Shown here piece after piece: positions 88 to 3,683 of a stretch of DNA of 64,000 bases. The stretch is from Pseudomonas sp. B21-048 (GTDB taxonomy: Bacteria; Pseudomonadota; Gammaproteobacteria; Pseudomonadales; Pseudomonadaceae), in NCBI RefSeq assembly GCF_024748615.1, contig NZ_CP087168.1, forward strand, positions 4,650,001 to 4,714,000, in the 5' to 3' direction. The notes beneath the pieces were generated by a model. It made no database searches and was not told where the DNA came from. It saw only the letters and a list, made by a program, of their open reading frames with translations. A program made the translations under genes and the position numbers. Every line of letters begins with the position of its first letter. Position 1 is the first letter of the stretch.

Positions 88-191
88 GGGTTAAATCCTA
101 CTGCCAAGGCTCTGTACTGCGGTTGTGATCCGCAAAAATGGTAGGTTATGCTCGCGTCGAGCCTATTTTGAAACAAGATGGCAGGAAGCCA

Positions 192-2108
192 ATGCCCCCT
201 CCAATGGAACACGTACTTGTCGATAAAAGCGTCCTTTTCCTGGACCCGGACATTATCAACCGCATTCGCGGCAAAAATGGACTGCCTTTTATCTCCCACT
301 CCGATCTTCTAGAGCTTCAGTCCCTGACCAAAGGGCTTGAGCAGGTCCACAAAAACGCTCGACAGTTTTTCCAATTCTTCGCCAGTCAGCCTTCCCGATC
401 GCACCGCGCACTCCCTAAAGGTACAGCACTGCGTCCCGGTGATTTGCTGGCTGAATGCGCGTTTGATGGCCATCCGATCTTCTTCCTAAAGCGAACGACA
501 GAGCCACAGGACCAGACTCCTTCCGGTGATGCCGTCGATTTTTGCCGTCACTACGACCTGTTGTTACTGACTTGCGATGAGGCGCAACTTACTCAGTGCA
601 AAGCCACTGACGCCAGAGCTCAACGCTGGATCGGCCGTGCGGAAAAAAACGGGGAAGGCACTTTGCCGCCGATCATGCCTTTCGAACTCCCCCAAAAGCC
701 TCTCACTACCGCCGACAGTCGTATCCATAACAAAGGCGCAAGCGTCACGGAAAGTTCGGTGGTAACGACGTCTAGCGGCCGCCGGTTGACCCTGAACAAA
801 TCCATCAGCTCCGGTGGCGAAGGAACGATCTACGCAGTGGCAGGAAATGCAGAAGTATGCAAGATCTATCACCCGGAGAAGCTCACTGAACGCCGCCGCA
901 AGAAGGTCGAGCTTATGGTGACGCGCCGAGTCGTTGAGCCTGGTATTTGTTGGCCGAATGAGCTGGTTTTCAATACGCAGAAAGAGTTCGTCGGCTATGT
1001 CATGCCTCGTGCGGAGGGGAAAACCCTTCAGGCCACGGTATTTGTCAAACCCTTGTTGGCAAGAACGTTTCCGCGCTGGACGCGACGAGATCTGGTGAAT
1101 GTCGCGGTTGCGTTTCTGAAACAGGTGCAATACCTGCATTCGCTGAACATCATTGTGGGCGACATCAACCCGAACAACCTGCTTGTGACACCCGACAGTA
1201 CTAAGGTCTGGATGGTCGATACAGACAGCTTTCAGATCGATCATTTTCCCTGCGAAGTTGGCACCGTGCCTTTCACCGCTCCAGAGATCCAGGGAGAAAA
1301 GTACGGCAACTACCTGCGTACCAAAGATCACGAGTTGTTTGCCATTGCCACCATGCTGTTCATGATCATGCTGCCAGGTAAACCACCCTATTCCCAACAG
1401 GGTGGCGGAACGGCGGCCGACAACATCAAGAACATGAATTTCCCTTATCGATTTAAAAAAGACAGTGGCAAAGGCAAGGTAAGCGTCACGCCGGTGGGTG
1501 CTTGGCAGCACATTTGGAGTCATTTGCCGTATCCGCTCAAGCAGGCCTTCAGCAACACGTTCGAAGATAATCAGCGACAACCGATCGGTGATTGGTTGAC
1601 GCTACTGACTCAGTACGGCGAAGAGTTGCTCAAGGGCAAGCATAGCGATGAGTTGTTCCCCGCCGCTTTCCATATCAACAACCCGGTCGAGGCTGTCTGC
1701 GGTAGTTGCAAAAAAACTTACACCGAATCCAAGGCCTGGCTTAAGAAAAGACAAGCCGTGGGTGGATCAACTCAATGCGCAGACTGTCAGAAGGCATCCA
1801 AACTGAAAAAACTGGCCCGTGAAAGCCAAAAGAAAACCAAGCTGGCAGAACAGCGTGCGGCGCCACCTCCGGCGGCCACCACGCCTCAGCCGAATCCAAC
1901 GCCGGTACGTAATATAGCGGCACCTGCACCTGCACCTAGACGCACTGCGCCGGCCACTGCCACCGTACGCCAGGCATCGACAAGACCGCAGCAACAGCAG
2001 CCGACTTCCGCCCGACCACAACCTTATAGATCCATGCCAACGCACGCGCCCAACCAAGAGGGCATGGTGGTGCGCTGGTTCAAACGACTCTTGAAGCATT
2101 TTTTGTAA
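192..2108 (+). CDS. PIN-like / Ser-Thr protein kinase fusion of a TerY-P triad
   Basis: First gene of a kinase-vWA-phosphatase operon. The kinase core shows a glycine loop (SSGGEGTIYA, about residues 204-213), an ATP-site Lys near 223, catalytic loop VGDINPNN with Asp 324, metal site VDTDSF (Asp 343/345) and a PE motif. A zinc-ribbon follows (C503xxC506...C529xxC532), then a Pro/Ala-rich linker and a basic amphipathic C-terminus. Residues 8-150 look like a PIN domain: VLVDKSVLFLD, a Glu in DLLELQSL and a late Asp in LLLLTCD. Start 192 is preferred to an upstream ATG at 138 because AGGAAG stands 4-5 bases before it; the upstream start has no ribosome site. The product is 638 residues. The kinase call is firm; the PIN call is inference from spacing of acidic residues. 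Confidence 0.85.
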   Translation: MPPPMEHVLVDKSVLFLDPDIINRIRGKNGLPFISHSDLLELQSLTKGLEQVHKNARQFFQFFASQPSRSHRALPKGTALRPGDLLAECAFDGHPIFFLKRTTEPQDQTPSGDAVDFCRHYDLLLLTCDEAQLTQCKATDARAQRWIGRAEKNGEGTLPPIMPFELPQKPLTTADSRIHNKGASVTESSVVTTSSGRRLTLNKSISSGGEGTIYAVAGNAEVCKIYHPEKLTERRRKKVELMVTRRVVEPGICWPNELVFNTQKEFVGYVMPRAEGKTLQATVFVKPLLARTFPRWTRRDLVNVAVAFLKQVQYLHSLNIIVGDINPNNLLVTPDSTKVWMVDTDSFQIDHFPCEVGTVPFTAPEIQGEKYGNYLRTKDHELFAIATMLFMIMLPGKPPYSQQGGGTAADNIKNMNFPYRFKKDSGKGKVSVTPVGAWQHIWSHLPYPLKQAFSNTFEDNQRQPIGDWLTLLTQYGEELLKGKHSDELFPAAFHINNPVEAVCGSCKKTYTESKAWLKKRQAVGGSTQCADCQKASKLKKLARESQKKTKLAEQRAAPPPAATTPQPNPTPVRNIAAPAPAPRRTAPATATVRQASTRPQQQQPTSARPQPYRSMPTHAPNQEGMVVRWFKRLLKHFL

Positions 2109-2132
2109 TGCTCAACTCAAAAGGATAATCCC

Positions 2133-2807
2133 ATGCAAGACGACTTTCTCCTTCGTCAGGAAGACCTCGCGGAAAACCCGACCACACGCGTGCCGGTTTG
2201 CCTGGTGCTAGACGTCAGCGGATCAATGGAAGGCGAGCCTATTGCGGAACTGCATTCAGGCGTTCAGATGTTTTTCGAGGCGATTCGTGACGATGAGGTG
2301 GCGCAATATGCCGCTGAAATTTGCATCGTGACCTTCGGCGGGACGGCGCAAAAAGTGCTGGATTTCAGTTCCATCAGTCGTCAGGACGTCCCCCCGCTGG
2401 TGGCATCAGGCATGACACCCATGGGGCACGCCGTGGGCATCGCTTTGGACTTGCTGGAAGCACGCAAGGAAGATTATCAACGTGCCGGCGTTGATTATTT
2501 CCAACCCTGGATGGTTCTCATGACCGACGGGGAGCCGACCGACGACATTGGTGAGGCGGCCGCTCGCGCAACCAGCATGATCAACAACCGAAAACTGACT
2601 GTTTTCCCGATCGCGATCGGTGAGGCAGCGAACGTGCAATCGCTAGCCCGGTTTTCCCCGTCGCGCCCGCCTCTGCGCCTCAAAGGCCTGCGCTTCAATG
2701 AGTTCTTTGACTGGCTGAGCCGAAGTGTTTCGCGCGCATCTCAATCGACACCGGGTGATGCGGTGGCACTGGATATTAAAGGTATCGAAGCCTGGGGACA
2801 GGTCTGA
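2133..2807 (+). CDS. TerY-like von Willebrand factor A domain protein
   Basis: A 224-residue protein made almost only of a vWA fold. The metal-ion-dependent adhesion site is complete: D27-x-S29-x-S31 in LDVSGSM, T95 in ASGMTPMG, and D132 in LMTDGEPTDD. No signal peptide or membrane segment is seen, so it is probably cytosolic. It starts 24 bp after the kinase with a good site (AAAAGGATAATCCC) and ends 3 bp before the phosphatase, so the three are co-transcribed. TerY-type vWA proteins are thought to be phosphorylation-regulated partners in tellurite/stress systems. No terC or terD gene is nearby, so a tellurite role is not shown here. Confidence 0.88.
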   Translation: MQDDFLLRQEDLAENPTTRVPVCLVLDVSGSMEGEPIAELHSGVQMFFEAIRDDEVAQYAAEICIVTFGGTAQKVLDFSSISRQDVPPLVASGMTPMGHAVGIALDLLEARKEDYQRAGVDYFQPWMVLMTDGEPTDDIGEAAARATSMINNRKLTVFPIAIGEAANVQSLARFSPSRPPLRLKGLRFNEFFDWLSRSVSRASQSTPGDAVALDIKGIEAWGQV

Positions 2808-2810
2808 GCC

Positions 2811-3608
2811 ATGCCTGACATCCCGGTAGACTTGCGCTGTAAAACGGCTTGCGCCTTTGTGACAGGACGCTCACACCTCAAAACTCAAACGCCTTGCCAG
2901 GACTATGTCGCGGCCAGAGAGTCGAACGAGGTGACCTGCATTTCATTGGCCGATGGGGCTGGCTCCAGAGCCAGATCCGAAATCGGCGCCCAAATCGCGG
3001 TCACTGCGACCCTAGCCTTTGTCTGCAAAAACTTTGAAAGCCTCTGGCAAAACATGGACAAACACAACGCGAAGGCAGCGCAGCGACTGGTTAATCGTTG
3101 TCTGGACGCGTTCAGACGCAAATCTGAAAAGCTTGGCTGCGACCTCAACGATCTGGCCTGTACCTTGTCGTTCGTCGCTCACTCTCATGGCCGCTATCTG
3201 GCAGGCCACCTGGGCGACGGAGTCATCGCAAGCGTTAATGTGGACGGACAACTTCAGGCCCTTTCTCATCCGGAAAACGGCGAGTTCGCCAACACCACGC
3301 TGTTTCTGACCGACCATAAAGCGGCGTCGCGGCTCAGGCTATATCGTGGACAGATTGAAGCCACGACAGGCTTTGCGATCATGAGCGACGGCACCGCAGA
3401 AAGCCTCTACCACAAATCCAGCGGCGTCCCCGCTCCGGCGATCCAAAAGCTGCTGGAATGGAATGCAACGTTACCCAGAAAAAAAATGAGAACCGTGTTG
3501 GGCGACAACCTTCAACAGTCCATCGCCACTAAAACCGGCGATGATTGCTCCATAGGATTACTGTCGATCCTGAAGCACTCCATCGATGGGGGTTCACACC
3601 CGGTATGA
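2811..3608 (+). CDS. PP2C-like protein phosphatase of the TerY-P triad
   Basis: A 265-residue PP2C-family metal-dependent phosphatase. Expected metal-ligand positions are present: D31 in CQDY, D48-G49 in LADGAGS, D136 in HLGDGV, D193 in MSDGTAES and D244/D245 in TGDDCSIG. The gene begins 3 bp after the vWA gene. With the kinase it would form a reversible phosphorylation switch, presumably acting on the vWA protein or a common target; the target is inference. It is the short PP2C type usual in TerY-P triads, with no fused sensor domain. No clear terminator separates it from the convergent regulator gene. Confidence 0.85.
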   Translation: MPDIPVDLRCKTACAFVTGRSHLKTQTPCQDYVAARESNEVTCISLADGAGSRARSEIGAQIAVTATLAFVCKNFESLWQNMDKHNAKAAQRLVNRCLDAFRRKSEKLGCDLNDLACTLSFVAHSHGRYLAGHLGDGVIASVNVDGQLQALSHPENGEFANTTLFLTDHKAASRLRLYRGQIEATTGFAIMSDGTAESLYHKSSGVPAPAIQKLLEWNATLPRKKMRTVLGDNLQQSIATKTGDDCSIGLLSILKHSIDGGSHPV

Positions 3609-3683
3609 CTGTCTCCGAGAAAAAATGACCGAAAACCTTCTGATCACAAACCCCGCATTGAATTGGAGGTCTTCAAACGGCGA

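Follow-up and report, generated by a model that had tools for sequence, protein, structure and literature searches.

A gene triad at the start of a 64,000-nucleotide stretch of Pseudomonas sp. B21-048 DNA (the window; assembly GCF_024748615.1, contig NZ_CP087168.1, positions 4,650,001 to 4,714,000 of the forward strand) encodes a protein kinase, a vWA protein and a PP2C phosphatase. The kinase begins with what its homologues identify as a PIN domain in which one of four active-site acids has been replaced. With middling confidence we read the triad as a TerY-P-type phosphorylation switch for defence or stress, the PIN domain serving in this lineage as a non-cleaving sensor or docking domain. 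The source genome is a single contig of 5.71 Mb, and positions given below as x..y are those of the window.

The Kinase, vWA and PP2C Genes

All three genes lie on the + strand and are tightly packed, with intergenic gaps of 24 bp and then 3 bp. The first (192..2108) encodes a 638-aa protein composed of the PIN-like region, a kinase domain and a zinc ribbon. The kinase domain (residues 188-480, 753..1631; PF00069, E = 4.4e-9) contains GGEG at 208-211, K224, GDINPNN (D324/N329) and VDTDSF (D343, D345). The vWA protein (2133..2807; PF00092, E = 4.6e-10) carries D27-x-S29-x-S31 (DVSGS at 27), T95 and D132, and the phosphatase (2811..3608; PF13672, E = 1.6e-49) carries ADG, GDG, SDG and DDCS motifs; we take these residues to be a complete metal ion-dependent adhesion site (MIDAS) and the PP2C motifs, respectively. 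All three Pfam matches are above the cut-offs. The genes thus form a TerY-P-type triad with a complete MIDAS, as an original prediction made from the sequence letters had proposed.

Residue conservation was read from the best-scoring 120 of 816 kinase homologues (E ≤ 1e-3 among 7998 scored proteins). This non-random set (121 proteins, less a duplicate of the window protein, which is counted once) retains the N-terminus in 119 members, and the homologue counts below refer to it unless another set is named. K224, D324, N329, D343 and D345 are invariant in 120/120 rows. So are the cysteines of a predicted four-Cys zinc ribbon located after the kinase domain (C503/C506...C529/C532, 1698..1787), for which zinc binding is putative; the ribbon had likewise been proposed earlier and was borne out.

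PIN Homology of the Kinase N-Terminus

Scans with Pfam, NCBIfam and PADLOC gave no PIN match in the window protein itself, and the domain (residues 1-150, 192..641) was revealed through its homologues. Residues 1-170 of homologue P0012 matched the window locus (L003 10192-10635) by tblastn at 35.8% identity (E = 3e-29). The window's clade comprises eight rows with an N-terminus (the window protein, P0003-P0008 and P0010); its profile was aligned by hhalign to that of the 76 four-acid homologues with a probability of 99.92 (E = 7.6e-35) over 146 gapless columns, both profiles having been cut from one multiple sequence alignment (MSA) with mostly-gap columns removed. A 96-sequence profile matched the solved PIN structure 1o4w at profile positions 104-145 (E = 2e-4). 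PIN_4 was detected at E ≤ 0.01 in 16 of 40 aligned homologues in our own scan, and precomputed Pfam annotation assigns PF13638 to many of the 120 homologues. By sequence, these comparisons identify residues 1-150 as genuinely related to PIN domains, in agreement with the earlier proposal. Public annotation already labels some family members "PIN domain-containing protein". Sel1 repeats (PF08238) accompany PIN_4 in P0075, P0089, P0121 and others, ahead of the PIN region where aligned.

Erosion of the PIN Active Site

The acids of the four-acid homologues fall on window positions 11, 41, 111 and 129, where the window protein has D, E, S and D. The motif 1 acid, D11 (222..224), is Asp in 76/76 four-acid homologues and in 41/41 of the others with a residue there; the motif 2 acid, E41 (312..314), and the motif 4 acid, D129 (576..578), are also kept. 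Motif 3 reads NND in homologues, and Ser111 (522..524) occupies its Asp position in the window protein, an assignment on which the MSA and an hhalign re-alignment agree. The original prediction had named D11 (VDKS), E41 (LLEL) and D129 (LTCD), which do fall on the columns of motifs 1, 2 and 4, but it had missed Ser111 at motif 3. Presence of the acids in close homologues had been set beforehand as a test. In the window's clade D11 was found in 8/8 rows, but E41 in 6/8 (Lys in P0006 and P0008), D129 in 7/8 (Asn in P0010) and an acid at position 111 in 0/8, the residues there being S, S, T, P, S, gap, P and A. Judged by the four conserved acids of an active PIN ribonuclease, the window protein falls short, with D11, E41 and D129 but Ser111 in the third position. 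We considered whether D113 could be a misaligned motif 3 acid and rejected this: the MSA and the hhalign re-alignment of profiles from the same MSA were in agreement, and such a shift would require the loss of two residues from the helix that follows.

The canonical acids of SMG6 are D1251, E1282, D1353 and D1392, and the D1353A mutant serves as a catalytically inactive control (PMC12923823). Judged by motif order, D1353 would correspond to window position 111. The nuclease reading is weakened because position 111 is non-acidic in 8/8 clade rows and the equated SMG6 residue is essential, and the PIN domain of the window's lineage would probably not cleave RNA efficiently. The nuclease under phosphorylation control that had been proposed for this kinase is therefore doubtful in the window protein, though plausible in the four-acid homologues and the Firmicutes relatives.

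Repeated Erosion and Purifying Selection

All four acids are present in 76 of the 119 homologues with an N-terminus; after rescoring, with P0118 (cut before position 11) not counted as eroded, the numbers were 77 full and 42 eroded. In a kinase-domain tree of 145 rows, parsimony gave six changes between the full and eroded states, at least four of which were forced by well-supported branches (five when two unscored rows formed a separate group). Twenty-four of the 25 outgroup kinases were labeled four-acid in this analysis, the PIN acids having been checked in 22 regions and the label assumed for some loci (L019, L022, L027, L028, L029, L034 and L035). An earlier tree of 159 rows, in which P0118 was counted as eroded, gave 7 changes, with 4 forced for the four-acid label. 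The trees are of a quick type with many weak branches, and the number of erosion events is approximate.

The ratio of nonsynonymous to synonymous substitution rates (dN/dS), estimated by a simple counting method in two comparisons, was 0.129 (against L005) and 0.170 (against L006) for the eroded PIN region, and 0.123 and 0.107 for the kinase. We concluded that the eroded PIN region is under purifying selection similar to that on the kinase, and the low ratios led us to reject the idea of a decaying remnant. In the 43 rows that lack at least one of the four acids, P0118 being counted among them, P75, D84, L86, Y121 and W146 are present in 43/43 and R101 in 42/43. D11 is found in 41/41 of these rows where the residue is present, D129 in 35/43 and E41 in 10/43. 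The fixed non-catalytic residues suggest that the eroded domains have retained a function other than cleavage.

Distribution of PIN-Kinases

Motif comparison, together with a profile built from 22 N-terminal PIN regions, also revealed the domain in kinases from Firmicutes, Treponema (L021) and Ignatzschineria (L033). In these 22 Firmicutes-type regions D1 and E are present in 22/22 and D3 and D4 in 21/22. Since four acids are this widespread, both here and among the 119 homologues above, the ancestor was probably a nuclease. In a Pfam scan PIN_4 was matched by 5/5 Firmicutes N-termini (E = 8e-5 to 3e-3; L012 above the curated cut-off), three of which also matched PIN_12, in one case better than PIN_4. 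The Paenarthrobacter N-terminus (L089) matched PIN_4 above the cut-off (E = 1.7e-5), the Rhodobacteraceae N-terminus (L011) only weakly (0.14), and the eroded L007 N-terminus gave no Pfam PIN match in the same scan. A reading of the Firmicutes-type kinases as a PIN-less outgroup was dropped, as motif, profile and Pfam all show the domain, which a tblastn search had been too weak to detect. Comparison of Firmicutes-type with proteobacterial PIN profiles gave a probability of 93% for the four-acid set, and 15% and 0.5% for eroded sets; on these values a single fusion is a possible origin of both groups. A conjugative plasmid carries the Paenarthrobacter copy, with transposition genes close by, and the Rhodobacteraceae copy is a 960-residue frame (L011 1049-3928) in a metagenome-assembled genome (MAG).

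Gene order at the PIN-kinase loci is mostly kinase-vWA-PP2C. L038 has kinase-PP2C-vWA, and no PP2C match was found at L036 or at L022, where the contig ends. PIN-less kinases (L042 onward, mostly of cyanobacteria; E. coli YegI; Photobacterium L090) begin with the kinase domain, and their order is vWA-PP2C-kinase where partners were found; L041 and L043 are kinase-first with no PIN found. The latter two are related kinases with N-termini of at least 600 residues in which no Pfam family scored above the cut-off. Several Firmicutes loci (L024, L025, L027, L029 and L030) have two consecutive vWA genes between kinase and PP2C; at L024 there are, in addition, two PIN-kinases, and TQN replaces TQD in one of them. 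Downstream of the first triad, two Bacillaceae loci (L018 and L020) have a further pair of PIN-kinase and vWA genes, diverged in sequence.

In a same-genus draw of 199 genomes the only matches were the window's own (E ≤ 1e-40, with at most 6 candidates scored per genome). A class-level draw of 229 genomes gave a full-length match only in the source genome and two others over the kinase part. Because named Pseudomonas genomes outside these draws (L005-L007, L009 and L010) carry the PIN-kinase, it is rare and patchy in the genus rather than unique. No relative of P0012 was found in viral contigs, and phage records gave no P0001 match at 1e-10.

Comparison with Known Systems

TerY-P has been described as a vWA protein, a PP2C phosphatase and a serine/threonine kinase (STK) with a C-terminal zinc ribbon (PMC11090510, citing Anantharaman 2012). 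The window triad has the three components, with a zinc-ribbon kinase, a MIDAS vWA and a PP2C. It differs in the N-terminal PIN domain of its kinase, which the TerY-P description in that part of PMC11090510 does not mention, and in having no TerD and no adjacent CoCoNuT, helicase or secretion genes. In line with the earlier observation that no ter genes are close, TerD (PF02342) had no match in the whole genome, other ter families not having been searched. Linked ter genes were not treated as required, because TerY-P has been described as CoCoNuT-linked or stand-alone too (PMC11090510). A version with an OB-fold kinase is a stand-alone phage defence (PMC11090510). This anti-phage STK-OB TerY-P (Gao 2020, via PMC11090510 and PMC7699616) has the same kinase/phosphatase/vWA triad, whereas the window kinase has a zinc ribbon instead of the OB-fold and the PIN domain in addition. 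The PADLOC STK_OB model matched the window kinase at E = 1.9e-6 over residues 299-370 only. Since the triad did not fit the PADLOC TerY-P models, we named it TerY-P-type and did not assign it to the PADLOC/Gao system. TerY-P protects P. aeruginosa PAO1 from Autographiviridae, with survival of most cells (PMC10889362); that variant could be of either kind, with a PIN domain or without one. In the literature searched we found no published PIN-kinase TerY-P, the primary papers Anantharaman 2012 and Gao 2020 being outside its reach.

The E. coli YegI, YegL and PphC proteins share 28% (kinase domain), 41% (vWA) and 27% (phosphatase, over 176 residues of PphC) identity with the window proteins. YegI has no PIN and its kinase domain starts at frame residue 14; the kinase gene comes last, with yegJ intervening in K-12. 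YegI is reported to autophosphorylate and to be dephosphorylated by PphC (PMC13232886). With PIN_4 ribonucleases, active SMG6 and inactive SMG5 the window PIN shares the motif order, SMG5 being a precedent for a retained pseudo-PIN; it differs by its fusion to a kinase and by replacement of the third acid with the others kept. IRE1 and RNase L, in which a kinase is fused to a KEN RNase (PMC3710099), resemble the window protein in the idea of a kinase-nuclease fusion, but their nuclease fold is unrelated and follows the kinase.

Chromosomal Site and Neighboring Genes

Comparison with relatives placed the triad in a 3596-base segment (88..3683) between a metallo-β-lactamase (MBL)-fold hydrolase gene and a LuxR-type regulator gene. 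The same gene pair lies 82-116 bp apart in six relatives (L092, L093, L095, L096, L099 and L101), and in L005 and L006 the triad occupies the window's chromosomal site. Six further relatives (L116-L121) hold several kb of other genes in the gap, and the site is variable. We looked for a defence-gene insertion hot spot there and saw none in these six relatives, judged by eye. When the available flanks of L007, L008, L009, L010, L011 and L089 were compared at E ≤ 1e-12, they had no common neighbor besides the triad.

A PADLOC scan at limits of 1e-6 or 1e-15 covered thirty large neighbor proteins at 18 loci. Specific known-defence neighbors were Lamassu LmuA and LmuB at L009, Gabija GajA at L010, a type III restriction enzyme at L027, and Csm3-like and Csx1/Csm6-like CARF-HEPN proteins upstream at L019. 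Neighbors at L015, L016, L024, L025 and L028 matched generic helicase, HerA or ATPase models, and the remaining 9 loci had no match among the scanned neighbors at these limits. In the Selenomonas MAG of L019 (2637-9821) the PIN-kinase frame abuts the CARF-HEPN gene, with the Csm3-like gene farther upstream on the same strand; the triad possibly forms one operon with these components of type III CRISPR.

Function of the Triad

We know of no signal or target for TerY-P triads. In the switch that we favor, the PIN domain and zinc ribbon would bind nucleic acid derived from infection or stress, or a partner, and so control the kinase. The vWA protein would recruit or scaffold the target through its MIDAS for phosphorylation, and PP2C would switch the kinase signal off and reset it. 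In four-acid members the PIN domain may additionally cut RNA as the effector; the window's lineage has probably lost cleavage and would have phosphorylation as its output. A defence or stress role, as originally suggested, is plausible, and anti-phage or stress defence is the most likely role of the triad.

Several observations weigh against this explanation. Three of the four PIN acids are still present in the window protein, position 113, two residues after Ser111, is D or E in 7/8 clade rows, and a rearranged site using D113 is conceivable judged by sequence alone. The 8.7 kb contig bearing the L011 PIN-kinase gave neither a vWA nor a PP2C match, although ∼4.8 kb of it lies downstream of the kinase. 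Only 4/18 relative loci have a specific defence neighbor, and those neighbors were selected by size and carry no background rate. The genes adjoining the window triad include no defence neighbor, its flanks being housekeeping-type, and the gap genes of L116-L121 do not look defence-like (by eye only). The PADLOC TerY model fails to recognize the window vWA protein (E = 0.041). The kinase activity, ligand, target and phenotype of the triad are what we infer.

It is unlikely, in our estimate, that the three-acid PIN still cuts RNA under the control of kinase, phosphatase and vWA protein. D11, E41 and D129 are kept for such an activity, some PINs use a fifth acid (PMC12923823), a role that D113 could take, and four acids occur in most homologues and in nearly all Firmicutes-type regions. 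The non-acidic position 111 throughout the clade, the Lys and Asn replacements of E41 and D129 in three clade rows, and the inactivity of SMG6 D1353A (PMC12923823) speak against it. Far less probable is a pseudo-PIN that completes the site of another PIN in trans, as inactive SMG5 gives one acid to a composite site with SMG6 (PMC12923823). The retention of D11 in every eroded-set row with a residue there would fit this, but the triad contains no second PIN gene, and the genome's single PIN_4 match is distant, in a 466-aa frame (G000:C1:1011996-1012430; other PIN families, such as PF01850, were not searched). We also consider it improbable that the triad serves non-defence envelope or stress signaling in the manner of YegI-PphC-YegL. 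Its three proteins are all homologous to the products of yegI, yegL and pphC, and the window, L005 and L006 share one chromosomal site amid housekeeping-type genes. YegI lacks a PIN, however, its gene order is different, and the patchy presence of the triad and the defence-gene neighbors of some relatives fit defence better.

Beyond the phosphorylation switch favored for the window, we tentatively suggest a wider scenario, held with less confidence, in which an ancient cross-phylum PIN-kinase-vWA-PP2C defence switch was a phosphorylation-gated nuclease that has been converted repeatedly and independently into a pseudo-nuclease sensor kinase. Phages, or the host's own cost, perhaps selected against the cutting step. 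If true, this would be a bacterial counterpart of kinase-RNase sensors. That kinases of several phyla carry an N-terminal PIN suggests RNA as their signal or their substrate, and with four-acid and eroded members both available from nature, cleavage could be separated from signaling without engineering. A "PIN domain-containing" annotation does not equal a nuclease and should be read with caution.

Other Features of the Kinase Gene

Either 192 or 204 may be the start codon of the kinase gene; 192 matches close homologues, and one source (P0002, 634 aa) begins the same protein at 204. After the zinc ribbon, a Pro/Ala/Gln-rich linker leads to a C-terminal hydrophobic/basic peptide (1827..2105, + strand), which is perhaps a docking or membrane-touching peptide. 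Among the retrieved homologues the kinase most often ends in LFK, IFK or FFK (59 in all). Similar ends occur in some Firmicutes copies and in the Paenarthrobacter copy, and the ends of others are different.

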